Part shown: one piece after another, positions 9,402 through 31,485 of the stretch
Position numbering within the stretch: position 1 is the first letter of the stretch
How the letters are laid out: each line of letters opens with the position of its first letter
Assembly (NCBI GenBank): GCA_016935415.1
Contig: JAFGRA010000360.1
Location: 1 to 42,453 of the forward strand
From: Anaerolineales bacterium
Lineage (GTDB): Bacteria; Chloroflexota; Anaerolineae; Anaerolineales; UBA11579
Length of the DNA: 42,453 nucleotides
Reading direction: 5' to 3'
Notes under the pieces: generated by a model
The model's input: only the letters and a program-made list of their open reading frames with translations
Database searches by the model: none
What the model was told of the DNA's origin: nothing
Position numbers and translations under genes: made by a program

Positions 9402-10400
9402 TCAGGAACTCAATTCCACGCGGCGCGGAGGGTTTTTCTCCAGGATCATCGCAAAGAACAGTTCAGCCTCGCGCTGGCTACCATCGCCACCGTGCCCAAT
9501 CGCCGGAAGTACACGCACACCGTACCAGGCCTGCTTACGATTGTACACATCCAGCAAGCGGAAACCGTGCTCGGAGAACAAATTAACACTATCGTATTGG
9601 TGCTGCACCAGGAAGAGTGGCGGCAGCGTTTCCTGTTCCTCGGCCAAAGCACACAGGTCAGGAACGGTTTCAATGCTCTCACCCTGCAAATAGGCATAGG
9701 GATTATTGGTGTTCTGTTCACCGTAGTCGCGGACTTTGGCTTTCAGGTCGACCTGGGGAGCCATAGCGTAAATGCCGTCACAGCCGTATTTAATACCGTG
9801 GTACAGCGCCCCAAAGCCTCCCATCGAACCACCCAGCGTGAACCAGGGTTGTCCTTGATTATCCTGGCGATGCAGGTTAATCAAGTCCTGAATCAGATGC
9901 TCAACGAAATTGTCGCCTTTCTCCCCCCAGAACCAACTGCCATTGCGGTTCCAGCCGAAAGTATCCCACGGGGCCAATACGTCGAATTGTTCCCAGGCGC
10001 GCATCGGCCCCATGTGTAGAAAAGCATTGTGCCCATGGAAAAGTACCACCAGCCCCTGGCTCTCTTTGCGAGCTGGGAGGAACGCATATCTTAGGATACG
10101 ATCTTCCCATTCGAAGACGTTAGGGTAAGTAGACTGCACCTGTGAAGCATCGAAGACCAATGCCGTCGCACGCATTTGCTGCTTCTCGCGAGCGCGAATT
10201 TCGGCTGGCGAGAGCGTCAAGATTGCGCTGCGGTCAGCGCGTTCCAGAGGAACTTCGCCGGAAGGTTGTAAGGCGCGGATAACCGCGATGCGCAGTGCTT
10301 TCTGCCAGCCTTCTTCCGCTGCCTTCTGCAGGAAGAAACTCCGGGCGCTGCGCACCTTCTGGGTGTAGCTCTTCCAGCGCGCCTTACGGGAAGCTTTCAT
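9402..10400 (-). CDS. Alpha/beta hydrolase (esterase/peptidase S9-like)
   Basis: LVVLFHGHNAFLHMGP, nucleophile elbow GGSMGGFGALYHG, late histidine in AIGHGGDG. Confidence 0.75.
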   Translation of the reverse strand: MKASRKARWKSYTQKVRSARSFFLQKAAEEGWQKALRIAVIRALQPSGEVPLERADRSAILTLSPAEIRAREKQQMRATALVFDASQVQSTYPNVFEWEDRILRYAFLPARKESQGLVVLFHGHNAFLHMGPMRAWEQFDVLAPWDTFGWNRNGSWFWGEKGDNFVEHLIQDLINLHRQDNQGQPWFTLGGSMGGFGALYHGIKYGCDGIYAMAPQVDLKAKVRDYGEQNTNNPYAYLQGESIETVPDLCALAEEQETLPPLFLVQHQYDSVNLFSEHGFRLLDVYNRKQAWYGVRVLPAIGHGGDGSQREAELFFAMILEKNPPRRVELSS

Positions 10401-12025
10401 TTTTTATATCCGATCATATTGCCTATGCACAAAACATCCATGCCGGTCTTCAAGAAAGTTTCCACGGCGTCATCTGGGGATTCTACAATAGGGTCGCCCA
10501 TATCGTTGAAGCTGGTATTGAGCACAACCGGCACTCCGGTCAGTTCACCGAACTTGGAGATCAATTGATGGTACATCGGGTTACGGCGGCAATCCACCAT
10601 CTGGATGCGTCCGGTCTGGTTGAGATGAACCACCGCCGGTACAGCGGCCTTGCCCTTCTCGGTTGCTGGGACGGTGAAAGTCATATAAGACAGGTCGGCT
10701 ACGCCCTCCGGGTAGTCAAAATATTCCCCGGCAGTCTCCGCCGCCGCTGAGGGGGCAAACGGACGGAACCACTCACGGTGCTTGATGCGCTCATTGATGA
10801 TGTCCTTCATCTCAGCCACGCGCGGGTCTGCGACGATGGAGCGGTTGCCCAAAGCACGCGCCCCCATCTCCGAGCGGCCCTGGAACCAGCCAATGATTTT
10901 GCCCTGAGCGACCCATTCGGCTGCTTCGGCGACAATGTCAGCGCTCTTTTCATACCGCAGGCCGCCCTTGCGCATGGCACGGGTGGCATCGCGGTCAGTG
11001 TATTCGTTGCCATAATAGACTGCATCGAGTTCAAAGAAACGCTCCACGCCCTTGATGTGGTGGATGTAGTACAGCGCCGCACCCAGGCCAATACCGCGGT
11101 CAGAAGCCATCGGCAGCGGGAAGACATGCTCAAACTCGCCGCTGTTCATCAGGTAACCGTTCAGGGATGAATTCATCACCACCCCACCGCTCAACACCAG
11201 GTCCTTTTCGCCGGTCTCACGCTTCAGGATTTGCGCCAACTGCATTACCACAGCGTGCAGCACTTGCTGGATGCTGGCCGCCAGGTTCATGTGTAAATCC
11301 GTCAACGGTTCAGGGACGATACGGCGCGGGCAGTAGGCGTTGAGGAAAGCGTTGTTCAACAATTGCGTGTTCAGGTAGCCGCCCTCTTCGGCCAGGCGGG
11401 ATTCGTCGCTGCGCAATTTATCACTTAGCTTGACGATGCCATCGGACGTGATCTCGATTTCGTTCATATAATCGTCGAAAATAGTCGGCTCGCCGTAGGG
11501 GGCCAGCCCCTGGGTTTTACCCTCGGAGCCATAACCGCCCAGACCAAGGTGGATGGTAGCGCGCAGGTATTCAAGGCCGATGCTGTCATGATCGCGCACG
11601 CGCTGCAACTCCTCAATCTGGTTGCCCTTGCCGTGGGCTAGGAGCGTGCTGTAGCCGTCGCCAAACCCATCCACCGAAAGGATGGCTGCCGATAGGTAAG
11701 GGGAACTGAAAAATGCCGCCGCGGCATGTGCCAGGTGATGGTCGACGTCGACGAACTCCTTGCCGCGTAGTTCACGCTTCAAATCCTCCTTACAATCAAA
11801 ATCGTCGGTGTGTCCAAAAGCGACCACGTCGATGTCACGGATGCGTACCCCCAGATCCTTGCAGACCTGTTTTATCGGTTCCAGCAGATCATCTCCCGGC
11901 TGGATCACGTGGTGCTTGCGCCGGGATAGGCGCTCAGCTTCCGTCATGGCGATACGCTTGTTCTCCACATCGACCAGCACACAATTGTAGTCGTGCATGA
12001 ACCCACCAATACCTAGAACTAGCAT
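10397..12025 (-). CDS. Carbamoyltransferase, NodU/TobZ family
   Basis: MLVLGIGGFMHDYNCVLVDVENKRIAMTEAERLSRRKHH; DVDHHLAHAAAAFFSSPY; C-terminal GRSEMGARALGNRSIVADPR...WFRPFAPS. Confidence 0.95.
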   Translation of the reverse strand: MLVLGIGGFMHDYNCVLVDVENKRIAMTEAERLSRRKHHVIQPGDDLLEPIKQVCKDLGVRIRDIDVVAFGHTDDFDCKEDLKRELRGKEFVDVDHHLAHAAAAFFSSPYLSAAILSVDGFGDGYSTLLAHGKGNQIEELQRVRDHDSIGLEYLRATIHLGLGGYGSEGKTQGLAPYGEPTIFDDYMNEIEITSDGIVKLSDKLRSDESRLAEEGGYLNTQLLNNAFLNAYCPRRIVPEPLTDLHMNLAASIQQVLHAVVMQLAQILKRETGEKDLVLSGGVVMNSSLNGYLMNSGEFEHVFPLPMASDRGIGLGAALYYIHHIKGVERFFELDAVYYGNEYTDRDATRAMRKGGLRYEKSADIVAEAAEWVAQGKIIGWFQGRSEMGARALGNRSIVADPRVAEMKDIINERIKHREWFRPFAPSAAAETAGEYFDYPEGVADLSYMTFTVPATEKGKAAVPAVVHLNQTGRIQMVDCRRNPMYHQLISKFGELTGVPVVLNTSFNDMGDPIVESPDDAVETFLKTGMDVLCIGNMIGYKK

Positions 12026-12048
12026 TTGCTATACTCCTCCTAAAAATA

Positions 12049-13695
12049 TTATTGCATTGGTTTTAGAATACTATATTTGTCGAACGTGACCACTATGTAT
12101 TGTGAATCCAGTGGTTCGTATTGCGGTAGACTTCGGCTATAGATCAAGATATAGTCAGGTTTTTCTACCTGACCATCCGGTGTTTTGGCCGTATTATGAA
12201 TGCCGTACAATGATTCTAACAAATAATCGTGCTCAACGCCGACGTAATAGCGATCATAATTCACCAGACTGCCGTTGGCAACAATCCAGCAATCTTCCGG
12301 GTAAGTGTGCAAGTGGTCGTAACGCATGGCCGCCGCAGTCTTGCCCTGTGCTTCCAAGTCAGCAGCGATCCAATCCCACACGGCGCGCTGCGGGTTGGGA
12401 TATTCGGCTGTGGCAAACCGCTGGGTTGTATTCACCAGCTGCCCGGTGCCCTGTACCAGCAAGGCCAACAATCCGGCCAGCAAAGCCCAACGCACGTATT
12501 TCTGCTTCGTCCATTTCGGCACAGTCAATCCATAAGCGATCACCAGCATTTGCGCGCCGTAGAACATCCACGAGATCGAAGGCCGGAAGGAAGTGTGATG
12601 CGGGGTCACGTTCTGGAGCGCAGCCGGGAGCAGGTACCCCAGCAATAACAATTGTTCCGGGCGGGTGGACTGGCGCTTGTACAAGCGATAGAGCAAAACC
12701 CCCAATCCCCAGGCAAAAGCAGCAACTTCAACAAAATACAGGCCGCGCCGGAAAATCGAAGTGGAAGCACCGCGGGTCAGTGACCAGTAGAAATTGCTCT
12801 CCAGCGAGCGCACCATGCCCACCACAAACCAGAAGCCGCGCTCAACAATAGGGTATAGAAAGGGGGCATGCGCTTGCAGGTAATCCGATACCTGATCTTG
12901 CAGTCCCCCACCGCCTGTATCGGCCACCGACTCGGTCACACACAAGGCAGATAATGTACCAGGATCTACAGTGGGGAGTTCGCCGGTGAGCAGCACTTGC
13001 AGGTCGATGAAATCGCGCGTGGTTTCGAACTTGAGGAAGGGCAGCCACATCACCCCTGCCAGTACAACCCCGACCAACAAGGGAGCCAGCTTGACCGGTG
13101 GGCGATAGATCAACGCCAGCAGTACCACCACCCCGAAAAGCACAATCCCGCCCCAATGTACACCGGGGATGAATGCCGCAATCACCAACAGGCCGGTTAG
13201 GTGCCAAGGTTTCTTCCCCTCGATCCATTCGAAAAAGCTGAAGAGCATAATCACGAAGACCGGTGGCAGCAGCCCTTGCGCCCAACTTGTATGCCCGAAG
13301 TAAAAGCCCCAGCGCGAGAAGGCATAAAAATAAACCGCCACCACACCCATCGGAATATCAAAGTAGCGCTTTCCGATGCGGTAAAGCAGTAACATGGCGA
13401 TCAAATGCAGGGCAAGCGCCGGGATGATCTGGAACCAAGCCGGGTTCAAGGTGAGCGCCATCCCGGGAAGGTAGAGCCAGACGAAAAAGGGCGGGTTGAA
13501 AGCGCCCTGGCTATTCATGATGCCATGGATAGGGAAAATGCCGTGCTTTACAAAGTCCAAGCCCAAATAGAAGCCCTGGGCCTTATCGAAATCGACTTCA
13601 TAGCTGGGGATACCCGCCAAGTGTACCCCCGCGCCGATCAATATACCCAGCAAGAGCAAGGTCTTCCACAGGCGATCTTGCAATTGTTCCGTCAT
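12049..13695 (-). CDS. GT39-like multi-pass membrane protein
   Basis: N-terminal YEVDFDKAQGFYLGLDFVKHGIFPIHGIMNSQGAFNPPFFVWLYLPGM followed by multiple hydrophobic segments. Confidence 0.75.
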   Translation of the reverse strand: MTEQLQDRLWKTLLLLGILIGAGVHLAGIPSYEVDFDKAQGFYLGLDFVKHGIFPIHGIMNSQGAFNPPFFVWLYLPGMALTLNPAWFQIIPALALHLIAMLLLYRIGKRYFDIPMGVVAVYFYAFSRWGFYFGHTSWAQGLLPPVFVIMLFSFFEWIEGKKPWHLTGLLVIAAFIPGVHWGGIVLFGVVVLLALIYRPPVKLAPLLVGVVLAGVMWLPFLKFETTRDFIDLQVLLTGELPTVDPGTLSALCVTESVADTGGGGLQDQVSDYLQAHAPFLYPIVERGFWFVVGMVRSLESNFYWSLTRGASTSIFRRGLYFVEVAAFAWGLGVLLYRLYKRQSTRPEQLLLLGYLLPAALQNVTPHHTSFRPSISWMFYGAQMLVIAYGLTVPKWTKQKYVRWALLAGLLALLVQGTGQLVNTTQRFATAEYPNPQRAVWDWIAADLEAQGKTAAAMRYDHLHTYPEDCWIVANGSLVNYDRYYVGVEHDYLLESLYGIHNTAKTPDGQVEKPDYILIYSRSLPQYEPLDSQYIVVTFDKYSILKPMQ

Positions 13696-13697
13696 CG

Positions 13698-14828
13698 CTA
13701 CGCGCCTACCTGTGAAATCAAATCTTGCAGCAAGGCCAATTCCCGGTCAGCAATCTTGATGAGGGCATAATGCTCCAGGGCATAGGCGCGGGCGTTTGCG
13801 CCCAGTTTGGCGCGCAAATCAGCATCGCCTAGTAACTGCTGGATAGCAGCGCGGATGTCTTCGGCCTCCATCCCACATAGCCAGCCATTTTCGCCAGATG
13901 TAATGACCTCCTGGATACCGGGAACAGCGGTGCCAATCGCGGGCAGGCCGCAAGCCATTGCCTCCACCAAGGTCTTGGGGTGGCCCTCGTAATGCGAAGG
14001 CAGCACGAAGACCCTGGCGCGCCGCAGGTAAGCGGGAACCTCATCATTGGGCAGCTTATCGATCCACTGCAAACGCCCATTCAGGTCGCCGTATTGTGCC
14101 ATCAAGTCGGCGCGCAGTTCCCCATTGCCGACAATCACCAGACTACAATCCAGGGGCTGCACGGATTCCAGCAACAAACCGACGTTCTTCTGCGGGTCGA
14201 TGCGCCCAATGAAGATCAGGTCGATGTCCTTCTCGACTTCTCCCGGTGCAAACGCCACTATATCGACGTAATTGGGAATTACAGTCGTTTTCTCAGCAGT
14301 TTCTGGGATGCGTTCAGCAATATCGGCCGCCATCATCGGGGTGGTGACCACCACGTGGTCGGCGGCGGCGAACACCTCTGCTTCAGCCTGCAAGACATGC
14401 TGCACGAAGGCATCATCCGCACCCAACTGGCGGATCGCAAACTCCGACCACATATACCCGCAGCGCGCCACCAGCGGCTTGCCGAATTTGCGGGCGGCTC
14501 CCAGGGCCAGGTCAGCGCCATCAGTCTGGTTGGTTTTGATAATGTCGCAGTTCCTTAGTACCCGGCGGTGCAGCCAGGACAGCCAACGCTCGTAAAGCGC
14601 ACTGGGCAAATGCCAGCGGTTGCAGTAAATGTCGATGCCGGGAATCCGGTCAGCGTAGTGCAAGTCGCGATGGTCACCAAAAGTGATGAAGCTGACCTTG
14701 ACACCGCGGCGCTGCAATTCCCGGTACAGCGCGACCTCGCGCCCCAACATACCGACACGCTCCCAGGTCTGCAGGGAAACGCCGCGCGTGAAGAACAGCA
14801 CCAGATGAAAAACAGGAGAAACCTTCAA
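13698..14828 (-). CDS. Glycosyltransferase family 4
   Basis: LIFIGRIDPQKNVGLLLESV; ARVFVLPSHYEGHPKTLVEAMACGLPAIGTAVPGIQEVITSGENGWL. Confidence 0.93.
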   Translation of the reverse strand: MKVSPVFHLVLFFTRGVSLQTWERVGMLGREVALYRELQRRGVKVSFITFGDHRDLHYADRIPGIDIYCNRWHLPSALYERWLSWLHRRVLRNCDIIKTNQTDGADLALGAARKFGKPLVARCGYMWSEFAIRQLGADDAFVQHVLQAEAEVFAAADHVVVTTPMMAADIAERIPETAEKTTVIPNYVDIVAFAPGEVEKDIDLIFIGRIDPQKNVGLLLESVQPLDCSLVIVGNGELRADLMAQYGDLNGRLQWIDKLPNDEVPAYLRRARVFVLPSHYEGHPKTLVEAMACGLPAIGTAVPGIQEVITSGENGWLCGMEAEDIRAAIQQLLGDADLRAKLGANARAYALEHYALIKIADRELALLQDLISQVGA

Positions 14829-14842
14829 AATAGCTTAACCGC

Positions 14843-15715
14843 CTACTTCGTCTTGCGCATGTACATATACCCGCGCTGCTCGTCGACCATGAACGGTTGC
14901 CCGGTATACGTCCCATCAGCCAGGAACTCATCCACAGCCTGCACCACACCGGGGAATTGCGCCGGGGTGTAATCATCACACACCACCACGTCTCCAGATT
15001 GCTGGCGGGCGCGCACATAAGCTAATTCCATCTGCAAGGTGGTATAGTCGTGCCCGCTGTCCAGGAAGGCAAAATGTACGCGTGGCCATTCCAATTGTGA
15101 TAGGGCAATGTCGGTGTAGCCACGCAGGAAGATCACGTAGCAATCCAGCAATCCCTGCCACGGTTCGAGCAATTGCAGGCGGGTCTTTTGTCCCTCGGCA
15201 TCGCAGATGCAGTTCCAATACAGCGGCTTGCGGGCATGCAGCACATCCAACGTGACGATCTTCCCAGCGCGGTCGGCGTCGGCCAGGGCTTTTGCCATAC
15301 ACAGCGCACTGAAACCGCGCGCCGTGCCGGTCTCCAGGATATTCACCGAATACAACTCGGGATGTGCTTGCAAATAATTTCGCAGCGCGCCGTAGAGCAG
15401 GTAACCATGCATGTAAAGCAGTTGCGATTTTTTAACCACCACCTGGGTCGCCAACGCTAACTCATCAACAAAAGCCTTCTCCGGCAGAAAACCAAATTCG
15501 GCGTCCACCGCTTCCAAAAATGCTGGATACACTCGCCCTTGCACCTCGGCCGCCAGGTCCAGATAGGCCTGGCGGGAAATCTCCGCCGGGCGCACGCCGA
15601 AGGGGTTATCATCAAAATGCGTGTACCAGCTTTGCCACACCTTTTGGCGATGTTCTTGCGTATTCACGGCCACACCAAACCGATTTACGAAGGTAGCCTT
15701 TAAGTTCTTGAGCAT
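14843..15715 (-). CDS. Class I SAM-dependent methyltransferase, Methyltransf_24-like
   Basis: NILETGTARGFSALCMAKAL...KIVTLDVL...VHFAFLDSGHDYTTLQMEL...DVVVCDDYTP. Confidence 0.75.
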   Translation of the reverse strand: MLKNLKATFVNRFGVAVNTQEHRQKVWQSWYTHFDDNPFGVRPAEISRQAYLDLAAEVQGRVYPAFLEAVDAEFGFLPEKAFVDELALATQVVVKKSQLLYMHGYLLYGALRNYLQAHPELYSVNILETGTARGFSALCMAKALADADRAGKIVTLDVLHARKPLYWNCICDAEGQKTRLQLLEPWQGLLDCYVIFLRGYTDIALSQLEWPRVHFAFLDSGHDYTTLQMELAYVRARQQSGDVVVCDDYTPAQFPGVVQAVDEFLADGTYTGQPFMVDEQRGYMYMRKTK

Positions 15716-19733: not shown

Positions 19734-21602
19734 CTACCCAGTAGTCAAATTTTCTGATCCGAATTGCAGTTCACACAAATAGCGATACACCTCACAACGG
19801 GTGAGCAGTTCTGCATGCGTGCCAATGTCGGCGACCTTACCGGCGTCCATCACCACGATCTTATCAGCGTTCAAGATCGTCGAAAGCCGGTGGGCGATCA
19901 CGATGGCAGTCGTGTCCTTGATGACCCGGTCAATCGCTTCTTGTACTAATTTTTCGGCCTGACTGTCCAACGAACTGGTGGCTTCATCCAGGATCAGGAT
20001 TTGCGGCTTGCGTACCACAGCGCGCGCAATCGCAATGCGTTGGCGCTGCCCGCCCGAAAGCCGCACGCCGCGATCTCCTACCAGAGTGTCGTACCCCTGC
20101 GGCAGGTCCCGCAAAATGAATTCGTGCGCGTTGGCTATTTTGGCAGCCTCTATGATCCGTTCATACGGAAGGTCTGGTTGATTGTATGCGATATTTTCGG
20201 CAATCGTGGCATTGAACAAGAAGCTGTCCTGAGCCACTACACCGAATAAATTACGATAAGCGGTTAAATCTACTTGGTGCAGGTCAACGCCGTCGATCAA
20301 GATACGGCCTTGTTGAGGATCATAGAATCGCAGGATCAAATCCACCAGGGTCGACTTACCGCTTCCACTTACACCTACCAGAGCAACCACATTGCCGTGT
20401 GTGATCTCAAAACTGACATCTTGCAGCACGACTTCTTCCTCGTACCGGAAAGTCACATCCTGTAATTCGATTTTCTGCTCGAAATTTTCTACCTGTACCG
20501 CGCCACTTTCCACAGCCGAAGTTTGCAAGAACAACTCATGTACACGGTCAGCAGAGACCACCGTATGCTGGGCAAGCAAATAGGTACTGGACAATCTACC
20601 CAGCGGGTCAAGCATGATGCGGCCAACGTAAATATAGAGGCCAAAGCCAACCACGGAGAGGCGACCTTCGAAGAGTTCGCGCGCTGCGAAGAAAAGCACT
20701 GCCACATTGGTAGCGGCTTTAATCATCATCACCAGCGGCTCGATCAAATTATTGGTGCACAAGAAATGATAAGCCGTTTGCACATACCCAACCAGGATTT
20801 CCGCCAGACGACCGGCTTCGTACTTTTCGGCAGTAAAAGATTTGACAACCCGCGCCCCCGAAAAGATTTCCTGGTAGTAGGCCTGCAAATTGGTCAGGGC
20901 GGCCAGGAAGATTTGTTTGTTCTGCCGCAGCGGACGGCGGATCAACCAGGTCAGGCCATACTGCACAACCGCGATCAGGCCGACTACAGCCGTCAATTGG
21001 ATACTGGTGCGCAGCAGTAACACCAGGTAAAAAGCCGCCAGGATCACATCGATGATCAAATTGCGAGTTACCGTCTCCAATCCCTCAACGGTCTGGCTGG
21101 TATCGGTGCGGATCTTGGTAATTAACTCACCGACTTTGCGGTTATTGAAAAAGTCCAAAGAGAGGGACATTAGATGATTGAATAAATCTTGCTGGATGTC
21201 CTGCCCCGCCTTTAAGCGCAGCCAGGCGGAAAGCACATTCGAGCCATAACTGAACAGATAGAGCACGAGAGAAATCATTAAGTAAGCCACCGACAGGTAA
21301 ATGAGGATTTGCCAGGTAGTCATTTCTCCCAAATGGAGGTACTGGGCCACAAATTGGCCAATATTGTTCAGGTCTACGTCTTTCAAAGCAATCGGTCCGG
21401 TATCTGCCGGGGCAGAGAAAATCGTGCCCTCTCCCAAAACAAGATCTAGCAGCGGCGTCATGATCATCGGCTGTACGGCAGTCAGCCCGGTGACGCTGAA
21501 ATAGGAGAACAACAGGGTCAATACCGCCACCCAATACGGCCGGATGTAGGTCACTAGGAAGGAAAGCAGCAAGCGATAGTCGGATGTTTTTCGTTTTTCC
21601 AT
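19734..21602 (-). CDS. ABC transporter, fused permease/ATPase (MsbA/PglK-like exporter)
   Basis: Walker A GVSGSGKSTL, signature RLSGGQRQRIAIARA, Walker B ILILDEATSSLD, preceded by a 6-TM-type permease; start MEKRKTSDY favoured over the upstream in-frame ATG at 21629. Confidence 0.95.
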   Translation of the reverse strand: MEKRKTSDYRLLLSFLVTYIRPYWVAVLTLLFSYFSVTGLTAVQPMIMTPLLDLVLGEGTIFSAPADTGPIALKDVDLNNIGQFVAQYLHLGEMTTWQILIYLSVAYLMISLVLYLFSYGSNVLSAWLRLKAGQDIQQDLFNHLMSLSLDFFNNRKVGELITKIRTDTSQTVEGLETVTRNLIIDVILAAFYLVLLLRTSIQLTAVVGLIAVVQYGLTWLIRRPLRQNKQIFLAALTNLQAYYQEIFSGARVVKSFTAEKYEAGRLAEILVGYVQTAYHFLCTNNLIEPLVMMIKAATNVAVLFFAARELFEGRLSVVGFGLYIYVGRIMLDPLGRLSSTYLLAQHTVVSADRVHELFLQTSAVESGAVQVENFEQKIELQDVTFRYEEEVVLQDVSFEITHGNVVALVGVSGSGKSTLVDLILRFYDPQQGRILIDGVDLHQVDLTAYRNLFGVVAQDSFLFNATIAENIAYNQPDLPYERIIEAAKIANAHEFILRDLPQGYDTLVGDRGVRLSGGQRQRIAIARAVVRKPQILILDEATSSLDSQAEKLVQEAIDRVIKDTTAIVIAHRLSTILNADKIVVMDAGKVADIGTHAELLTRCEVYRYLCELQFGSENLTTG

Positions 21603-21618
21603 AAGCTTATTCTCAACT

Positions 21619-22605
21619 CTAGACCGCATAAACGCCGGGGCGATACCACTGGCGGTTTGCTTTAACCCACTCGATGGTAAGCTGCAAGCCTTCTTCCAGC
21701 GTTACCCCTGGTTCCCAATGCAACAGTTCCTGCGCCAGTTGATTGTCGGCGAGCAAACGGGTAACCTCGCTTTTCGAGGGGCGCACCCGTTGGTCTTCCT
21801 GTTCGATTTTCACGTTCACACCCACCAGGTTGGCGATCAATGCTGCCAGGTCACCGATACTGATCTCGCGCCCGGAACCGACGTTGATCACTTTTCCGCA
21901 TACGTTCGGGGCCAGGGCTGCCCGCATAAAACCATCCACCGTATTGCCAACGTAGTTCAGGTCACGGGTTGGATGCAGGCTGCCCAGACGAATCACAGCT
22001 TCCCCGGCCAGACACTGTGTAATGATAGTCGGGATCACAGCGCGCGCCGACTGGCGCGGACCAAAGGTATTGAATGGGCGCACAGTGACGACGGGCACAT
22101 CGAACGAACTGTAAAAAGCTTCGGTCATCTTGTCGGCGCCGATCTTGCTGGCAGAATACGGCGACTGGCCTTGCAGAGGATGTTTCTCATTAATCGGCAC
22201 ATACACGGCGCTGCCATACACTTCGCTGGTCGAAGTATGCACCATGCGTTCCACGCCGCACTCACGGACGGCCTGGAGTACATTGGTAGTACCTTCCACA
22301 TTAGTGCGGATATAGGAATAGGGAGCTTGATAGGAATAAGGGATGGCGATCAGCGCCGCCAGGTGGAAAACGATGTCCACTTCGCTCACGGCGTGCCGCA
22401 CACTGTCACGGTCACTGATGTCCCCGGCGATCACTTCCATCTGTGCTTTATACGAGGAAGAATCCAACCAACCCCAGCTTCCCAGGGCATTATAATGCAC
22501 CAGGGTGCGCACCTTGGCACCTTGTTCTATCAATTGCTCTGCCAGATGGCTGCCGATGAAGCCGCCTGCTCCGGTAACTAAAACTCGTTTTCCATTGAAA
22601 TTCAT
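21619..22605 (-). CDS. legB: NAD-dependent epimerase/dehydratase, LegB-like (4,6-dehydratase of legionaminate pathway)
   Basis: VLVTGAGGFIGSHLAEQLIEQGAKVRTLVHYNALGSWGWLDSS; VHTSTSEVYGSA...YSASKIGADKM; next to NeuB/NeuC/NeuA homologs. Confidence 0.85.
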   Translation of the reverse strand: MNFNGKRVLVTGAGGFIGSHLAEQLIEQGAKVRTLVHYNALGSWGWLDSSSYKAQMEVIAGDISDRDSVRHAVSEVDIVFHLAALIAIPYSYQAPYSYIRTNVEGTTNVLQAVRECGVERMVHTSTSEVYGSAVYVPINEKHPLQGQSPYSASKIGADKMTEAFYSSFDVPVVTVRPFNTFGPRQSARAVIPTIITQCLAGEAVIRLGSLHPTRDLNYVGNTVDGFMRAALAPNVCGKVINVGSGREISIGDLAALIANLVGVNVKIEQEDQRVRPSKSEVTRLLADNQLAQELLHWEPGVTLEEGLQLTIEWVKANRQWYRPGVYAV

Positions 22606-23690
22606 AAAGAAAATTTGCCTTTCTGAATATCCTCTTGCGCCTGGCGATAATCGGTATGCTGGCCGATGTCCAGCCAGTATTCCAAAATCGGGAAACTGAC
22701 CACGGAACGCTCATGTTCGATCAGGGTAGTGATCAAGTCAGGCATATCAAATCTTTCGTGGGCCGGGAAGAATGCAAAGGCGCTGGGTTCCAGCAGATAT
22801 ACCCCGGCGTTGACCAGGAAACTATAGGTTGGCTTCTCGCGGACTTTGGTAACCTGTACATCATCACTCTCCACAACGCCGTAAGGCACCTGCACGGAGA
22901 ACTGGCGTACGCCCACGGTCAGGTCGGCGTGGTGTTTCTGGTGGAAGGCGAACATTTCCCGGAAGTTCAACTGTGTGAGGATATCACCGTTGATCACCAG
23001 CAAGGGGCCGTCAGGCTGCCCGACCAGCCCCAATGCTCCGGCCGTGCCCAGAGGCGAGTCTTCAGTCAGATAATCGATGTTGACACCAAAGGATTCGCCG
23101 TTGCCAAAGTGGTTCTTGATGCGCTCGCCGAGATAATGCGTGGAGATGTGTATGTTGCGAATCCCGGATTGGTTCAATTGCTCCACCACCCATTCCATCA
23201 AGGGTTTGCCACCCACCGGCAGCAAAGGCTTGGGCGTGTCATCGGTGAGCGGGGATAAGCGTGTACCATAGCCGCCCGCCATGATGAGTGCATTGACCGG
23301 CAGCGCTTCTTCGGGCACCAGCGTGTCGATCGTAATTAGATCAACGACCCGGTCCTCCTCATCTAACACTGGCAGTTGGTAGATTAGATATTGCTGCAAG
23401 AGCTTGATGCGTTCTTCCTGTGGGGTATCAACGTGTACGGCAATCGGGGAAGCATACATGCCACCCGCTTTGCTCTCCAGAAGATGGGAAACACTGGTTT
23501 CCAAAGAGAGACCCGCCAACACCGCCCGGCGGATGTCACCATCTGTGATCGTGCCGATCAAATGTAGGTCAGCATCCGTCACCAATACGATCCCCAAAGC
23601 GCCTTTATCCAGCGTTTCAAGGGCAATATGAATGCTCGTTTCCGGGCGAATGCAAATGCTGGTAATGTCTTTGATCTCTTTAGATGCCAC
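22602..23690 (-). CDS. ptmE: CBS-domain fused sugar-phosphate nucleotidyltransferase, PtmE-like
   Basis: N-terminal CBS pair (GTITDGDIRRAVLAG) then NALIMAGGYGTRLSPLTDDTPKPLLPVGGKPLMEWVVEQL. Confidence 0.85.
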   Translation of the reverse strand: MASKEIKDITSICIRPETSIHIALETLDKGALGIVLVTDADLHLIGTITDGDIRRAVLAGLSLETSVSHLLESKAGGMYASPIAVHVDTPQEERIKLLQQYLIYQLPVLDEEDRVVDLITIDTLVPEEALPVNALIMAGGYGTRLSPLTDDTPKPLLPVGGKPLMEWVVEQLNQSGIRNIHISTHYLGERIKNHFGNGESFGVNIDYLTEDSPLGTAGALGLVGQPDGPLLVINGDILTQLNFREMFAFHQKHHADLTVGVRQFSVQVPYGVVESDDVQVTKVREKPTYSFLVNAGVYLLEPSAFAFFPAHERFDMPDLITTLIEHERSVVSFPILEYWLDIGQHTDYRQAQEDIQKGKFSL

Positions 23691-24361
23691 TACGATTTTT
23701 TCCTGTCTCGCTCAAGCAATGGTTGATACTTTTTAGCGGGGACACCAACCATCACCGTCTCCGGAGGAACATCCTTGACCACAACCGCGCCCGCGCCAAC
23801 GATGGCATAAGCGCCAATTGTAATCCCTTGGCGTACCACCGCACCAATCCCAATGTGTACACCAGTAGCCACATGCACGTTGCCGGCCAGATGTGCGCCG
23901 GTGGCAACGTGGGCGTGGTCGGCAATACAGCATTCGTGCTCGACGATCGCACCGCTGTTGACGATCACGTTCTCACCCAACTGCGCTTCGGCTGCCACCA
24001 CCGCCTGCGGGCCGACCACAATGCCTTCAGCCAATGCAGCCGAACGCGCCACCACCGCCGAGGGGTGAATGGCCGGCACGAAGGTAAAACCGGATTGCTT
24101 CACGCGGGTGTAGATTTGCTGGCGTGGCCGGTTATCACTGCTGCCCCCCACGCCCAGGAAGGCCAACGTAATACCTTGTGCCAGGAGTTCTGGCAGCAAG
24201 GTATCGTCTCCAATTACCGGAATACCCAATCGGGTTTGTTCCTTTAATGAGGCAGCGCGTTCTAGCAAGCCAACAATTTCATATTGATCTTGCAATTGCA
24301 GGATGTCGATGATCACGCCAGCGTGCCCACCGGCCCCAATGCCAATCACTTTGGACTTCAT
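23690..24361 (-). CDS. legH: Left-handed beta-helix acetyltransferase, NeuD/LegH/PglD family
   Basis: MKSKVIGIGAGGHAGVIIDILQ; hexapeptide repeats GAHLAGNVHVATGVHIGIGAVVRQGITIGAYAIVGAGAVVVKDVPP. Confidence 0.88.
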   Translation of the reverse strand: MKSKVIGIGAGGHAGVIIDILQLQDQYEIVGLLERAASLKEQTRLGIPVIGDDTLLPELLAQGITLAFLGVGGSSDNRPRQQIYTRVKQSGFTFVPAIHPSAVVARSAALAEGIVVGPQAVVAAEAQLGENVIVNSGAIVEHECCIADHAHVATGAHLAGNVHVATGVHIGIGAVVRQGITIGAYAIVGAGAVVVKDVPPETVMVGVPAKKYQPLLERDRKKS

Positions 24362-25518
24362 GATTGCCCGTCCCGATAGAAGCGTTTGGCAATCAATGCG
24401 ACATTGATCTCCGTATTCACCAATACGCTGACAATTTTCTCGGCGGCCTTGCCATCGCCATAGGGGTTGACCATGCCCTGCAATGCTGCTTTAAATTCGA
24501 GTTGGGTCACCATCTCTACAGCTTGTATGATCGCGCTGCGTTCGGGGGCGGAGTGTACCACATTCTCGCCGTGCAAGCGGCCTTGCTGACGATTACCAAT
24601 ATTGACCACCGGCAGGGTGAATGAAGCCGCTTCGATGATGCCGCTGGAAGAGTTGCCAACCATCGCCAGGGCCGCGTTCAACATGCTGTAATATCCTTGC
24701 GTGCTGAAATTGGCGACCACTTGAGCCTGTGGTCTGCTTTGAACATACGCCTCGATACGCTGGATGATCGTCCGGCCTTGTGCATCGGCATTGGGATAGG
24801 TGAACACAACCGGCAAACCAAGCGTATCCAATGCTGCAAGCAATTCATTAAAATACACACCGGTCTGTTCAACTTCGCGCGTCACGGGATGGAAGGTGAC
24901 CAATAAGGGTGGCGCCGCCAAATCTAAACCGAACTGCGCCTCCAATTGTTTTTTGTCGAGCAAAGGGATTGCCGCCATATTATCGAGCGCCGGTGCACCG
25001 CTGACCGTCACCCGCCAGGGTTCTTCACCCATCCGGATCACGTTCTGGGCATAGGCTTCAGTAGAAGTGAAATGCAAATGGCTGAGCTTGGTGATGGCGT
25101 GCCGGATAGATTCATCCATCGCCCCAAAGGTCAATTCGCCGCCATGCAGGTGGGCAAGCGGAATATTAAAGGGCAGGCTGGCACATGCCGCCGCAAACAT
25201 TTCATAGCGATCTCCCAGCACCAGCAGTATATCCGGTTGGAAGCGCCCGAAAACCTGAGCGAAGCCAATCACCCCTAGCCCCAGCGATTTACCGATGCCT
25301 TCGGCGGTATTGCTGGAAAGCGTAAATTCGACGCGTTCCTGGATGGGGAAACCGTCCGCCTCGATAACCTGGACGGTATTACCGAATTCCGGGGACAGGT
25401 GCATCCCAGATGCAATCAAATACAAATCCAGGTCAGGATTTGCCTGGATGGCACGCAGCACCGGCAGGTAAATGCTGTAATCGGAACGCGCCACGCTAAC
25501 CACGCCAATCGTCCTCAT
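24358..25518 (-). CDS. legG: Hydrolysing NDP-sugar 2-epimerase, NeuC/LegG family
   Basis: MRTIGVVSVARSDYSIYLPVLRAIQANPDLDLYLIASGMHLSPEFG; LVLGDRYEMFAAACASLPFNIPLAHLHGGELTFGAMDESIRHAITKLSHLHF. Confidence 0.93.
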   Translation of the reverse strand: MRTIGVVSVARSDYSIYLPVLRAIQANPDLDLYLIASGMHLSPEFGNTVQVIEADGFPIQERVEFTLSSNTAEGIGKSLGLGVIGFAQVFGRFQPDILLVLGDRYEMFAAACASLPFNIPLAHLHGGELTFGAMDESIRHAITKLSHLHFTSTEAYAQNVIRMGEEPWRVTVSGAPALDNMAAIPLLDKKQLEAQFGLDLAAPPLLVTFHPVTREVEQTGVYFNELLAALDTLGLPVVFTYPNADAQGRTIIQRIEAYVQSRPQAQVVANFSTQGYYSMLNAALAMVGNSSSGIIEAASFTLPVVNIGNRQQGRLHGENVVHSAPERSAIIQAVEMVTQLEFKAALQGMVNPYGDGKAAEKIVSVLVNTEINVALIAKRFYRDGQS

Positions 25519-26561
25519 GCCAGCAGCTCCCAGGTGATCAGACTATCGACCGGAATATCAACCTTGGCAACCCGCCCAATGACGGCTGGCAGCATCCCCG
25601 GCAGCAATCCCGTACCAGGGCGTTTGGCAGTGAGCATCTGGCGTTCGATTACCGTACCGGCCGAAATATCCATCGCCGTGACCAGGCTTTTGCGCGCCAC
25701 GCTGCGCACATCACTTTCGCAGTCCGCCGGACGTTTTTGCCCATCGCCCAGGGCGGCTTCTACTTTGCGAATCCCGGCAACCATCGCTCTGAATTCTTCC
25801 AGCATCACCGAGGCGCGATGGTCCGGGCCAGGCAAATCGCGATCCAACGTCAGATGCTTTTCAATCACACGCGCCCCCAAAGCCACCGCCGCCAGGGCAA
25901 TCTCAATGCCCATGGTATGGTCGGAAAAGCCTACCGGCACGTCAAACGCCTGCGCCAGTGTGGACATGGCGCGCAGGTTGCTGGCTTCAGGCGGAGCAGG
26001 ATATTGGCTGACGCAGTGCAGCAAAGCAATCGCCGGGTTGCCGTTCTCCCGAATCGTATCTACAGCGGTTTCCACTTCTCCCAATGTAGACATACCGGTA
26101 GAAACAATCATCGGCTTGCTCTTGCGGGCAATATGTGCCAAATACGGCAAGTTGGTGATCTCGCCGGACGGGATCTTATAAGCACGCACGCCAAGCTGCT
26201 CTAGGAAATCGGCGCTGTCCTCATCAAAAGGCGTGGAGAGGAAAAGAATTTTCCGGTCCCGGCAGTATTCCAGAACCGCTTGATGGTCAATGGGGGAAAG
26301 CTCCAACCTTTTCAGCATCTCGAACTGCGACTCTTCGCCACCGGTGGTCTGAGTCTGGTAATCAGCTTTCGCCGCCTGGCGCGTGACCAGCTTCTCCGTT
26401 TTGAAGGTCTGGAATTTAACGGCGCTGGCTCCGGAATCGGCGGCAATATCAATCAATCGGCGGGCTAGTTCGAGGTCGCCGTTATGGTTGACGCCGATCT
26501 CAGCGATGATGAACGCCGGTTGGTACTCGCCAATTGCCAATGTTTCCGTAATCTGGATCAT
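25515..26561 (-). CDS. legI: N-acetylneuraminate/legionaminate synthase, NeuB/LegI family
   Basis: PAFIIAEIGVNHNGDLELARRLIDIAADSGASAVKFQTFKTEKLV; C-terminal SAF-like segment; start MIQITETLAIGEY preferred over 26609. Confidence 0.94.
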   Translation of the reverse strand: MIQITETLAIGEYQPAFIIAEIGVNHNGDLELARRLIDIAADSGASAVKFQTFKTEKLVTRQAAKADYQTQTTGGEESQFEMLKRLELSPIDHQAVLEYCRDRKILFLSTPFDEDSADFLEQLGVRAYKIPSGEITNLPYLAHIARKSKPMIVSTGMSTLGEVETAVDTIRENGNPAIALLHCVSQYPAPPEASNLRAMSTLAQAFDVPVGFSDHTMGIEIALAAVALGARVIEKHLTLDRDLPGPDHRASVMLEEFRAMVAGIRKVEAALGDGQKRPADCESDVRSVARKSLVTAMDISAGTVIERQMLTAKRPGTGLLPGMLPAVIGRVAKVDIPVDSLITWELLA

Positions 26562-27262
26562 GGGTTGACTTCCTCCCAAAGTAACTCGGCAACTTTGAAT
26601 TCCCACCACTCATCGATATCCCAGGCTGCAATCCGTTCCATCACGTACCCGACCACCGGAACATCGGCAAAGTGCCGCATCTGGAAAAGCGTTTCACGTC
26701 GGATAGCGTAAACCGCCCCACAGGGTTGGTATAACTTTTGGGTGCTGACTGACGCCTCGGTGCTATCCAACATCTTACCAATCGAGGTCAAAGCACCATC
26801 GGCGGCCAGGTGGTACATCCAGGTCAAGGGGAGGTCGGCCTGCCGCACGGACAGCGCGGCCGAAGCATCGCTAGAAAGCAGCGCCTGGATCGTGCCATCG
26901 ATGTGTTCTGCGCGGCGAAACGGTGAAGAAGGTTGCAACAGCACGGCAATGTCCGCCGTCCAACCCTGATTGTCCTCGTACCATTTCACGGCGTGCCGTA
27001 CAACATCCCAACTGGAGGCTATATCCGAGGCCAACCCCGGCGGGCGCATAAAAGGCAACTCGGCCCCGGCCGTTCGACCCGCGGCGGCAATCTGCTCATC
27101 ATCGGTCGATAAGACAATCCTGGATACCAGTTTACTTTGCTGGCCGGACTGCACGGCAAGCTCAACCAGCGATTTGCCCCCCAACTGGAGCAAATTCTTG
27201 CCGGGGATGCGCTTGGAGCCGCCCCGGGCGGTAATGATGGCAAGCACCTTTGGCGTCATCAT
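26558..27262 (-). CDS. legF: CMP-nonulosonate cytidylyltransferase, NeuA/LegF family
   Basis: KVLAIITARGGSKRIPGKNLLQLGGKSLVELAV...VLSTDDEQIAAAGR; start at MMTPK... chosen. Confidence 0.92.
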   Translation of the reverse strand: MMTPKVLAIITARGGSKRIPGKNLLQLGGKSLVELAVQSGQQSKLVSRIVLSTDDEQIAAAGRTAGAELPFMRPPGLASDIASSWDVVRHAVKWYEDNQGWTADIAVLLQPSSPFRRAEHIDGTIQALLSSDASAALSVRQADLPLTWMYHLAADGALTSIGKMLDSTEASVSTQKLYQPCGAVYAIRRETLFQMRHFADVPVVGYVMERIAAWDIDEWWEFKVAELLWEEVNP

Positions 27263-27269
27263 TGCTCGT

Positions 27270-28487
27270 TCAACCCTTGGCCTCTGTAAGCAGTCGCTCT
27301 TGCACGGCATCCAGTACACGCTGTGATGCCTGCCCGTCCAGCGGGCCGACAAAACGATCTAAATAACGTTGACGGGCGGCTTCATCAAATCCAAAATCGC
27401 CAAATTGCTGCCGGGCAAAATTCTGCAAGAAACTGGCTAAAGGCACCCGGGTAACCGCACCGGGCGCATCCCACAAATCCGAGAAATTATGCTGCAATTC
27501 GGTATATAAAACAGCGGTATCTCGATCTGGCAGGCGCACTTCCACGTAGGGCACGGCCGCAGCCAGCGCCTCGGTCGCCACAACACTATTGAAACCCACC
27601 GCTAGGTCAGCAATCTTCAAAAGTTTGAGGATCGTGGCGGGGTAGAAGCTTACATCATAAAAAACCTGGTCGGCGGCTGCGGTCTCTTCGGCGAGTAGCG
27701 GGTATTTCGAACGCGCCTTAACGGCCATCACCGCGTTTTGGTTGGTAGCAAAATGGCGCACGCGTGCGATCAAGTTCTTGTAATTCCACCCGCGCCAGAT
27801 ATAAGGCAGATATTCCCAGCGTAAATGATTCTTGAACTTCCACAATTGCTTGAGACGGCTGGATACGGTGAAAATATATTGGCAGTAAACGGTCGGCTGC
27901 AAGCGCCCACAGGCATCGCTGGGCAAGAAGAGCACGACCGGGCGGTCGGCAGGGATACCCAATTCGGCCCGTACCTGGCTTTCATCAAGCTGGGGAAGCA
28001 CATCCAGTTCGGGAAAGCCAACCGGCACACTGATCGCCTCCAACTGCGCTTGCGTTCCAACAGAAAGCGCCTGTCCGGAATTTTCCAGGAACTGCACATA
28101 CCAGTCCACCCAATCGCTGGTGTAGGCACAAAACAGATCGGCGGTCAGAAAGTTGGCAATCTCGCGATTGGCTAAAAAGGAATCCAGGGCACGCTGCACG
28201 TGTACCCAGGGTTTTGTTTTTTCAATGCCATAATAGGCAGGCGGTGCCCCAGCGATCACGCAGTCCACCTGCTCTGCCAGGGTTTCAAGTTCTTTGAAAT
28301 CTTCAATGGCAATGATCTCCGTCTGCCCGTTAGCGTAGGTCGGGATCAAATCCTGCTCAGCTTCCGAATCGAAGCGGTGCCAGCAGGTCACCTGCCAGCC
28401 GCGTCCCAAGGCCGCATCAATGATCGGGGCGAGGTGACGGTAATCGTAGATGCGCCCAATCGGAATGCCCAGGCGGACGGTACTCAT
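27270..28487 (-). CDS. GT-B-like protein of unknown specificity (surface carbohydrate biosynthesis), paralog A
   Basis: Inside nonulosonate operon; WRGWN, PATILKLLKIADLAVGFNS, RYLDRFVGPLDGQASQRVLDAV shared with the adjacent gene. Confidence 0.7.
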   Translation of the reverse strand: MSTVRLGIPIGRIYDYRHLAPIIDAALGRGWQVTCWHRFDSEAEQDLIPTYANGQTEIIAIEDFKELETLAEQVDCVIAGAPPAYYGIEKTKPWVHVQRALDSFLANREIANFLTADLFCAYTSDWVDWYVQFLENSGQALSVGTQAQLEAISVPVGFPELDVLPQLDESQVRAELGIPADRPVVLFLPSDACGRLQPTVYCQYIFTVSSRLKQLWKFKNHLRWEYLPYIWRGWNYKNLIARVRHFATNQNAVMAVKARSKYPLLAEETAAADQVFYDVSFYPATILKLLKIADLAVGFNSVVATEALAAAVPYVEVRLPDRDTAVLYTELQHNFSDLWDAPGAVTRVPLASFLQNFARQQFGDFGFDEAARQRYLDRFVGPLDGQASQRVLDAVQERLLTEAKG

Positions 28488-29770
28488 CGAATCACCTCCG
28501 GTTGGGCAACGCGTGCTTCAACTGCATCAAGCACACGGCGGCTGGCCTGGTGATCGATCGGTCCGACATATTTCTCCAAGAAATTCTGGCGGGCCTGAGC
28601 GTCGATCTTGAAGGTATCCAGAGCGTAGGTGGGCAACTGCTCGATAGCATCTGGGATTGACAGCCAGCGGTTGACGCCCACGAAATTGTAAGGGCCTTGC
28701 GCTATGCTGCTCCACCAGCGCGTCGGGTAAGGCGGCCGTTCACCATATTTGGCAAAGGGGCTAGGCCGGTGGATGCACAGCGCGGGAACACCAGCGTAGG
28801 CCGCTTCGAGCGTAGCCGTGCTATAAAAGTGGATGCACAGATCAGCAATCGCCAACGCTTCAAAGATCGTGGCCGGGTCGTTTTCATCGTCGTAGAGCAC
28901 CTTGTCGGCGACTGCGGCCAGCGAGGGCCGTACCGGGTCTTTCTTGCGCCCCTTGACCAGCAAGTAAGCTCCGTTGTGCTGACTGAACTGGCTCAGGACG
29001 TGATTGAGGTACGCATCGTTCCAGCCGCGCCATGCCCAGGAGAAATGCTCGAAGAACAGCGCCGGGGATTCGTGCACCCCACCCCAGAATAGTTTCTTGA
29101 GTTGTTGGGCACGCGTCTCGGCCATGAAGAACAACGACCAGTAATCGGAGAGGTTAGCAAGCGGGATCGGCAGCACCAGCACGACCGGCTGCTCGGCGGG
29201 TATTCCCCAGCGTTGGCGGACTTCCTGCGGGTCGATTTTAGCGAACTGGTCGAACTGCGGCGCGCCGGCAAAAGCGATTTTGCCTGCAACCGCTTCGCCA
29301 TATTCTTCCCGCTTACCCTGCCCACTCAAGGCGTAGATTTCGGCAGAAAGATCCAACCAGTAAGGTGTATACAGGCACACTAAATCAGAGGTGCCAAAAA
29401 CGCTCTGCTTGCCCGAATTAGCAAGCGTATCGACGCCGACCTGCAAGGTGACGAACAGGCTATCCGGCAGATCGGCACCAAATTTGGCGTAGTGTCCTCT
29501 TTCCTGGGTGCTGATGATCGCGTCCGGCTGCAACTGGGCAATCAACCTTTCCAAAGCGGCGTAACCGGTAAAAGGAAAACTTTCCACCTTTGTACGCAAG
29601 GCCGCGGGTAGATCAGCCTCCGTGGCATCCAGATGCGCCTTGGGGTCACCGGCGGCTGAGATTTGCCCCAGCAAGCAAAACACCTGATAGCCGCTCCGCA
29701 ACGTTTCAGCGATTACCGGCGCGAGGTAACGCACCAGGTTGCCGCGGTCGATCAAGAAAGCAACCTTCAC
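28484..29770 (-). CDS. GT-B-like protein of unknown specificity (surface carbohydrate biosynthesis), paralog B
   Basis: WRGWN, PATIFEALAIADLCIHFYS, NFLEKYVGPIDHQASRRVLDAV parallel paralog A; 4-nt overlap with it. Confidence 0.7.
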   Translation of the reverse strand: MKVAFLIDRGNLVRYLAPVIAETLRSGYQVFCLLGQISAAGDPKAHLDATEADLPAALRTKVESFPFTGYAALERLIAQLQPDAIISTQERGHYAKFGADLPDSLFVTLQVGVDTLANSGKQSVFGTSDLVCLYTPYWLDLSAEIYALSGQGKREEYGEAVAGKIAFAGAPQFDQFAKIDPQEVRQRWGIPAEQPVVLVLPIPLANLSDYWSLFFMAETRAQQLKKLFWGGVHESPALFFEHFSWAWRGWNDAYLNHVLSQFSQHNGAYLLVKGRKKDPVRPSLAAVADKVLYDDENDPATIFEALAIADLCIHFYSTATLEAAYAGVPALCIHRPSPFAKYGERPPYPTRWWSSIAQGPYNFVGVNRWLSIPDAIEQLPTYALDTFKIDAQARQNFLEKYVGPIDHQASRRVLDAVEARVAQPEVIR

Positions 29771-30243
29771 GCCTGGCTCCCTTTGCCATCCTGATGGCGA
29801 TAAAGTTCATAGCCGTAACCATTGTCTTTCACACACCACTCTCGGGCTTTTTCATCAAGTGCGATACCAGCTTCGATACAGGTCAGGCGCATGATGTCCA
29901 TGGTTTCACCTTTGCCGCGCAGCCATACGTGTTCAATGCCTTTAGCTTCCATATCCCGCACAATCATATTGGCTTGTTTGCGCAGGCGATTGTAGACCTT
30001 GAGTGCATCCCCAAAATAGCGCGTGGCACGCTGCGCCAACGCAGCCAGCCCTTCCGGGGTGAGGTTGTATTGCAGGCGGTTGCGATCCATGCGTGTGGCT
30101 TTGATGTAACCGATCTTGACCAGGCGCTTGATGTACCAATTCACACTGCCCACCGCAATGTCTAGTTGGGCAGCCAACCCGGCCTGGGTGACTTCTTCGT
30201 CTTCGGAGATAGCCTGTAAAAGGCGGTATTCGCGTTCCTTCAT
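29767..30243 (-). CDS. Winged helix-turn-helix transcriptional regulator, EPS-associated MarR-like N-terminus with extra C-terminal domain
   Basis: EREYRLLQAISEDEEVTQAGLAAQLDIAVGSVNWYIKRLVKIGYIKA...YNLTPEGLAALAQR then HVWLRGKGETMDIMRLTCIEAGI. Confidence 0.82.
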   Translation of the reverse strand: MKEREYRLLQAISEDEEVTQAGLAAQLDIAVGSVNWYIKRLVKIGYIKATRMDRNRLQYNLTPEGLAALAQRATRYFGDALKVYNRLRKQANMIVRDMEAKGIEHVWLRGKGETMDIMRLTCIEAGIALDEKAREWCVKDNGYGYELYRHQDGKGSQA

Positions 30244-30273: not shown

Positions 30274-31485
30274 TCAGTCCTCCAACGCCGCGGCCAGTTC
30301 CTGGCACACGATCTCGACCTGCGCTTCGGTCATCACACTGGAGAACGGGATAGCCAGACCGCGCTTTCCGAGGTCCTCGGTGACCGGATAATCACCTTCC
30401 TGATAGCCGAATTGTTCGACCATGAAGGGTTGTAGGTGAATGGGGGCGAAATACGGGCGGGCCGGAATGCCGCGCTCGGCCAATTTGTGGATCAGGGCAT
30501 CGCGGTCGATCTCAGGCGTGACGCGAACGACATACACAAACCAACTCATGCGGGTAGTAGTGTCCAAAATCTGAGGGGTTTCCACCAGGGCGAGGTCGCC
30601 CAACCGTTGTTCGTACCACTCAGCCACCTGGGCGCGCTTGGCAAGCATTTCATCCAGGCGCGTAGCCTGGATATGCCCCAACGCGGCACTGATCTCATCC
30701 AGGCGATAATTGTAGCCCAGGTGGGTGTGCGCCAGCCAGGTATCCCCGGGGGCACGGCCCTGGTTGCGCAGGGCGCTCATAAACGCGGCCGCTTCGGCAT
30801 CGTTGGTAACCACCATGCCGCCTTCACCGGTGGTCATCTGCTTGTTGGGATAAAAAGCAAATACGGCGTAATCAGCCTGCGAGCCAGCCTTGCTGCCTTT
30901 GTACTCCGCGCCAATCGCTTCGCAGGCATCCTCAATGATCTTTAGGTTGTGGTCTTCGGCCATCGCCAGCAACGGATCGAGGTCGGCCGGTTGGCCGAAC
31001 ACATCCACCGGCAGGATCGCCTTGAGTTCACCGGCGGCTTCTGCACCTTTACGCGGCAACCACTTGGCCGCGGCAGCGCCACCGGTCTTTAGATCATCCA
31101 CAGCCTGCCGCACCTGCGCTACGTCGATATTACCGCTGGCCGGGTCAACGTCCACGAAAACGGGAATGGCGCGTTCGAACAACAGCACATTACTTGACGC
31201 CACGAATGAAAACGGGGTGGTGATCACCAGGTCACCCGGCCCGATCCCGGCAGCGCGCACGCACAGGTGCAATCCAGCCGTACCGGAATTGACCGTCAGG
31301 GCATGCTCGACGCCGGCGTAAGCGGCAATCGTGTCTTCAAAGTTTTGGGTTTCCGACCCCATGCTCAACCAGCGGCTTTGCAGCACAACGTTGACGGCTT
31401 CAACTTCCACCGCGGTAATGTCGGGCGAAGACAGGGGAACTTTATATTGTGATTCGGCAGCCAAACTCTGAGATTCTTTACGCAA
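30274..31485 (-). CDS. legC: DegT/DnrJ/EryC1/StrS PLP aminotransferase (LegC-like)
   Basis: ALTVNSGTAGLHLCVRAAGIGPGDLVITTPFSFVASSN; IIEDACEAIGAEYKG; FYPNKQMTTGEGGMVVTND (PLP lysine); clustered with legB/H/G/I/F. Confidence 0.9.
   Translation of the reverse strand: MRKESQSLAAESQYKVPLSSPDITAVEVEAVNVVLQSRWLSMGSETQNFEDTIAAYAGVEHALTVNSGTAGLHLCVRAAGIGPGDLVITTPFSFVASSNVLLFERAIPVFVDVDPASGNIDVAQVRQAVDDLKTGGAAAAKWLPRKGAEAAGELKAILPVDVFGQPADLDPLLAMAEDHNLKIIEDACEAIGAEYKGSKAGSQADYAVFAFYPNKQMTTGEGGMVVTNDAEAAAFMSALRNQGRAPGDTWLAHTHLGYNYRLDEISAALGHIQATRLDEMLAKRAQVAEWYEQRLGDLALVETPQILDTTTRMSWFVYVVRVTPEIDRDALIHKLAERGIPARPYFAPIHLQPFMVEQFGYQEGDYPVTEDLGKRGLAIPFSSVMTEAQVEIVCQELAAALED

Follow-up and report, generated by a model that had tools for sequence, protein, structure and literature searches.

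Tandem GT-B-like proteins encoded with a CMP-sugar synthetase in Anaerolineae are candidate CMP-ulosonate transferases

Transfer of the activated sugar is the least known step of bacterial nonulosonate pathways, and sequence searches for the enzymes that perform it lean on the HP motif. In an uncultured Anaerolineae (Chloroflexota) bacterium, an operon for a legionaminic-acid-type sugar encodes two adjacent GT-B-like proteins, A and B, which raises the question of whether these proteins use the CMP-sugar that the operon makes. To address it, we analysed the two genes and their surroundings in a 42,453-nucleotide stretch of DNA (contig JAFGRA010000360.1; the whole stretch is hereafter the window) together with homologous loci from other genomes.

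Two paralogous genes in a nonulosonate operon

Both genes lie on the minus strand, A at 28484..29770 (428 aa, GTG start) and B at 27270..28487 (405 aa, ATG start), and they overlap by 4 bp; these open reading frames coincide exactly with those of the initial annotation, which had described A and B as tandem GT-B-like paralogues. BLASTP confirmed the paralogy far past chance (147 bits, E=1e-44, 127/416 identical residues, 31%), with B as the divergent paralogue of A, a glycosyltransferase-like protein; identity was lower in the N-terminal half (28%) than in the donor core (39%). The sequence motifs that had been listed as common to the two proteins were all present in both translations, except that the 'YLAP' element reads HLAP in B. 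The 'lone K-R-K' segment noted among them corresponds to K-G-R-K-K in A (residues 273-277; 28940..28954, minus strand) and to K-A-R-S-K in B (residues 257-261; 27705..27719, minus strand), that is, to a K-x-R-x-K motif where K-x-H-P would be expected.

The gene order given in the initial annotation (aminotransferase, MarR-type regulator, A, B, CMP-synthetase, NeuB) was reproduced, with all of these genes on the minus strand. A PseC/LegC-type aminotransferase (30274..31485) is followed by a MarR-type regulator (29767..30243), which shares 4 bp with the start of A and has homologues in 11 of the 14 loci described below. On the other side, the ATG of the CMP-sugar synthetase gene (26558..27262; CTP_transf_3) lies 7 bp past the stop codon of B. 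Because of the two 4-bp overlaps and this 7-bp gap, the regulator, A, B and the CMP-synthetase are probably co-translated. The names legC and legF proved approximate, as the aminotransferase scored higher with PseC (296 bits) than with LegC (274 bits) and the best NCBIfam model of the cytidylyltransferase was PseF (138 bits), all below cut-off.

Further along the same strand lie genes for a NeuB/LegI-type nonulosonate synthase (25515..26609; PF03102, 338.8 bits), a NeuC/LegG-type hydrolysing 2-epimerase (24358..25518; TIGR03568, 447.8 bits, over cut-off), a NeuD/LegH-type acetyltransferase (23690..24361; TIGR03570, 214 bits, over cut-off), a protein with CBS and nucleotidyltransferase domains that we take to be PtmE-like (22602..23690), a LegB-type 4,6-dehydratase (21619..22605; TIGR04180, 473.5 bits, cut-off 475) and an MsbA-like ABC exporter (19734..21629), the other gene common to nearly all homologous loci. 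Seven nonulosonate-pathway genes thus share the operon with A and B. Judged from known pathways, a hydrolysing NeuC together with LegB points to legionaminic rather than pseudaminic acid. The operon proteins that were scanned included no member of a recognised nonulosonate-transferase family. The minus strand further encodes, downstream of the exporter, GT2-type and GT4-type transferases and a carbamoyltransferase (Carbam_trans_N/C; window positions 10397-12025), and a homologue of the latter also occurs near the A/B-family gene of genome G050 (L033:11388-13202).

A narrowly distributed family outside named families

The initial annotation could not place A and B in a named family, and our searches agree: neither protein reached a Pfam or NCBIfam cut-off, and a PDB sequence search with A and B returned no significant match. 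The weak sequence matches of the family were to TagF-type Glyphos_transf and to BFO_1060. With PF04464 (Glyphos_transf, TagF/TarL), B scored 20.2 bits, below the gathering cut-off of 22.1, and A gave no match; weak matches occurred in 7 of 15 family members (best E 2.4e-7). With NF046086 (BFO_1060 family glycosyltransferase), A scored 19.8 bits and B 15.9 bits against a cut-off of 200, and we found no tie between BFO_1060 and an experimentally tested transferase. Pfam searches of A, B and their relatives detected neither PF05159 (Capsule_synth), which was also missing from the window locus, nor PF01973 (MptE-like/Maf). A literature search, with most subscription papers outside its reach, found no description of the family.

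Of 24 genomes from the taxonomic family of the window's genome, 13 contained a homologue, as did one genome from another part of the order; the family set analysed here comprises 14 loci and 15 proteins, two of them contributed by the window. When about 300 genomes were sampled from the class and as many from the phylum, with few candidates scored per genome, the window's genome was the only one recovered, so the family looks narrow in distribution. Single-protein seed scans of viral contigs, genome contigs, plasmids and phages gave no family match, and a seeded scan with a narrower alignment (A5) recovered four named Anaerolineae/Chloroflexi MAGs. Two copies occur in the window's genome only, all other loci being single-copy. 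In the family tree, A clusters with the proteins of a related genus that has one copy per genome (34-41% identity), and B branches outside A and its orthologues. A recent duplication inside the window's genome was therefore rejected as the simple reading of the pair, although the branch of B is long.

Family genes accompany CMP-sugar synthetases

The initial annotation had proposed that A and B consume the CMP-sugar made by the operon. In all 14 loci, a CMP-synthetase gene was found within 10 kb of the family gene, and the two genes adjoin each other directly in the window, G005, G006, G010 and G013. The MsbA-like exporter was present in 13 of the loci and NeuB in 11 (missing at G012, G013 and G019). 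The share of a genome that lies within 10 kb of a CMP-synthetase is about 1.4-3.1%, and the 13 linkage cases come from related genomes and are not independent, so that multiplying these fractions gives no P value. In a tree, the linked synthetases are spread over several distinct branches, although some placements rest on long branches: two kinds occur within one genus, another clade holds those of G003, G005, G006, G010 and G013, and those of the window and G050 stand apart. This scatter over the tree suggests that the association of the family with the synthetase outlasted replacement of the synthetase itself.

Because three of the 14 loci carry a CMP-synthetase without NeuB, the family follows CMP activation rather than nonulosonate synthesis, and 'CMP-sugar' is a better supported description than 'nonulosonate'; the nonulosonate-specific claim of the initial annotation is the weaker for it. 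No homologue was found in a genome lacking NeuA/NeuB homologues, and genome-level co-occurrence with NeuB carries no information, as NeuB is present in all 24 genomes. In G019 (L021:4579-9401) and, similarly, in G012 (L024), the place of NeuB is taken by an Ldh_2-family dehydrogenase, a CMP-synthetase, a methyltransferase, an SDR protein and a GT2-cytidylyltransferase fusion. The fusion lies upstream of the transferase in both genomes, and the G019 synthetase comes after the Ldh_2-type dehydrogenase rather than after NeuB, a layout that suggests a different CMP-activated sugar or acid.

Two further features of related loci were recorded. Short NeuB proteins (243-246 aa; L022:11925-12665, L025:8281-9012, L026:8016-8747 and L027:11163-11897) sit with short CMP-synthetases of about 190-210 aa; the L022 protein, the one of the four that was scanned, matched NeuB and had no SAF domain. 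Elsewhere, sulfotransferase genes flank the homologue (L030:8425-9609, 11589-12458 and 14167-15219; L031:10428-11432), so the exported glycan of such loci may be sulfated.

Next to which transferases do the remaining CMP-synthetases lie? For each of the 82 CMP-synthetase genes in the 24 genomes, we took the nearest PF05159, PF01973 or A/B-family gene within 12 kb as the candidate transferase. A candidate was found for 76 of them, the nearest being PF05159 in 41 cases, PF01973 in 22 and the A/B family in 13; most of the 6 synthetases left over are on short contigs. Neither PF05159 nor PF01973 occurred within 20 kb of an A/B-family gene in the 13 loci searched. Synthetases sampled for the tree from genomes without the A/B family were of other types, with the one exception of G002, whose relevant synthetase sits on a contig of 3.8 kb, which would end before a family gene if the layout is as in G019. 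More strongly than any other result, this complementarity argues that the family occupies the slot of a CMP-sugar transferase, though a transferase role of the PF05159 and PF01973 proteins is itself putative here.

The same pattern bears on a rival explanation, in which A and B are ordinary GT-B transferases for another UDP-, GDP- or dTDP-activated sugar and lie beside the synthetase only through a shared glycan cluster. That explanation would account for the absence of the (K/R)XHP motif, and it agrees with a generic GT-B fold that has UDP-binding proteins among its best matches. It also has a precedent in SpsB, a TagB-domain protein of the Bacillus subtilis Leg operon that is dispensable for Leg transfer (PMC7439481); as SpsB shows, operon position can mislead, and location in a Leg operon does not by itself make a GT-B protein the Leg transferase. 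However, the other glycosyltransferases of the cluster come and go, whereas the CMP-synthetase is constant (14/14) and drawn from several branches, and the PF05159 and PF01973 transferases are both missing from the family loci. We consider the rival unlikely.

The survey also brought up a PF05159-like glycosyltransferase of about 540 aa with an invariant RAHP, encoded directly after a CMP-synthetase in the window's genome (L073:8656-10254, G000:C45) and, in several further genomes of the order (L054-L071), between NeuB and a CMP-synthetase. Below every NCBIfam cut-off, this protein is another unnamed candidate for a CMP-sugar transferase. A profile comparison of its family with that of A and B was not significant (probability 3.7%). 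In most genomes of the taxonomic family, a PF01973 (MptE-like/Maf) protein is encoded about 2.5 kb from one CMP-synthetase type (G000:C11 and relatives).

A GT-B fold with a putative variant donor site

Confident AlphaFold models of A and B (pLDDT 87.0 and 87.7, pTM 0.88) revealed two facing Rossmann-like domains, and Foldseek matched them with probability 1.00 to many GT-B structures, in line with the GT-B-like character first assigned to the pair. The best solved folds were TagF, whose donor is CDP-glycerol, and non-hydrolysing UDP-GlcNAc 2-epimerases, at TM scores of only 0.5-0.6; no sialyl- or Kdo-transferase was among the top 50 matches. Such scores are generic for GT-B proteins, and the fold settles the superfamily but not the donor.

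Two other readings draw on these matches. A and B could be TagF/TarL-like phosphotransferases acting with CDP-glycerol or CDP-ribitol, since TagF ranks first or close to first among the solved folds and the weak PF04464 matches recur in the family. This is very improbable, because the HP of the TarL KMHP motif is replaced and the scan of operon proteins recognised none that would make CDP-glycerol or CDP-ribitol; a CMP-sugar synthetase, by contrast, is present at every locus. Alternatively, with 2-epimerases among the top folds and a small GT2-type gene adjoining NeuB and the CMP-synthetase in one genus and in G050, the family might consist of epimerase-like or regulatory GT-B proteins, transfer being left to another gene such as that of the GT2-type protein. 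But PF02350 (2-epimerase) matched no member of the family, most loci already have a genuine 2-epimerase, and neither in the operon core of the window nor in G003, G005, G006, G010 or G013 could the GT2-type gene seen in that genus be recognised, which makes a non-transferase role hard to credit.

In GT-B enzymes, it is usually the C-terminal domain that binds the donor. Seventeen residues are invariant across the 13 other loci; A has all 17 and B has 13. In its C-terminal half, B keeps every invariant residue (K-x-R-x-K, P, T, S, E, G, S and others) save for a conservative change of L to M, and its other losses (F5, K44 and L109) are N-terminal. K-x-R-x-K is invariant in the 15 proteins, none of which has HP at that site, and the D/E-D/E-G motif, which holds the catalytic base of bacterial sialyltransferases, has no conserved occurrence among them. 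S317-x4-E322 is likewise invariant, a similar S...E pair being common among GT-B proteins, and position 114 is D/E in 14 of 15. A weak alignment to TarL places K273 on the K and R275 on the H of KMHP. In one pairwise profile alignment, to a KLHP protein, the motif is displaced by two residues relative to the TarL register, so the equivalence of K-x-R and K-x-H is uncertain.

In known CMP-sugar transferases, (K/R)XHP is a shared motif whose His contacts the CMP phosphate, and in KrkA it is essential, the H227A variant being inactive (PMC12887879). The HP-motif His of MhPST is H291, and the enzyme also has a ribose-binding Glu (PMC5517516). By comparison, S317 and E322 are plausible counterparts of the KrkA residues that contact CMP (PMC12887879) and, in MhPST, of the Glu that binds the ribose (PMC5517516), and the arginine of K-x-R-x-K could take over the phosphate contact. 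K-x-R-x-K in the place of K-x-H-P is either a variant CMP site or a warning against reading the family as CMP-transferases. The proposed consumption of the operon's CMP-sugar has good indirect support in the ever-present synthetases of several lineages and the different candidate transferases at other CMP-synthetase loci; the absence of HP from the site in 15 of 15 proteins speaks against it.

Discussion

Taken together, we propose that A and B are candidate CMP-ulosonate transferases, a function to which we assign a probability of roughly 0.7. Because they lack the motif shared by the known enzymes, we describe them as candidate CMP-sugar transferases and not as members of any characterised family. 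As cytoplasmic GT-B transferases, they would take an ulosonic acid from its CMP-activated form, in this operon most likely a legionaminic-acid-type nonulosonate, and attach it to a growing glycan for export by the adjoining ABC transporter. The C-terminal half would bind CMP, with K273 and R275 in the role of K-x-H-P and with S317 and E322 positioned at phosphate and ribose, respectively, and D/E at position 114 would act as the catalytic base. Since B keeps the donor-side residues and has diverged most in its N-terminal, acceptor-side half, it may use the same donor as A with a different acceptor, a fair inference from sequence and no more. The initial annotation's further idea, that the pair may form two linkages or that one protein may have become a chain extender, would concern this genome alone, the one with two copies. 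The fuller proposal, an undescribed Anaerolineae family of CMP-ulosonate transferases that binds CMP through K-x-R-x-K in place of (K/R)XHP, was retained through several synthetase replacements and is doubled here into two donor-sharing enzymes, has in our view even odds of being correct.

If A and B do transfer CMP-activated ulosonic acids, an HP-less family would account for some of the missing transferases, provide new tools for the synthesis of legionaminic-acid glycans and show that a CMP site can be rebuilt. In these genomes, the 'one CMP-synthetase, one transferase' layout also offers a practical route to further transferases.

Among known systems, TagF/TarL (PF04464) shares the GT-B fold as the best solved-structure match; its NNAVVLFKMHP segment gives an ungapped local match to N-x-A-x(4)-K-x-R of the family, and the S-x4-E region aligns. 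A and B differ from it in falling below the Pfam cut-off, in having K-x-R-x-K versus K-x-H-P and in lying next to a CMP-sugar synthetase, not CDP-polyol genes. The PF05159 proteins of the same genomes (KpsC/KpsS-like, about 540 aa) similarly lie near NeuB and a CMP-synthetase at other nonulosonate loci, but their aligned members have an invariant RAHP and never occur within 20 kb of the A/B family. Although A and B lack (K/R)XHP and any sequence match to GT38, GT52, GT80, GT99, GT107 and GT140, none of which is in the top 50 folds, they share the two-Rossmann-domain logic of these families, and their S and E plausibly equal CMP contacts of KrkA and MhPST (PMC12887879, PMC5517516). GtfS (Tanf_01245) and TFUB4_00887 of Tannerella forsythia, transferases of pseudaminic and legionaminic acid derivatives described as TagB-domain proteins (PMC6120980, PMC6388019, PMC7439481), are set apart by description, since they have the D/E-D/E-G and HP motifs (PMC6388019) that A and B lack; like A and B, they are GT-B proteins, of about 440 aa, encoded together with CMP-NulO genes.
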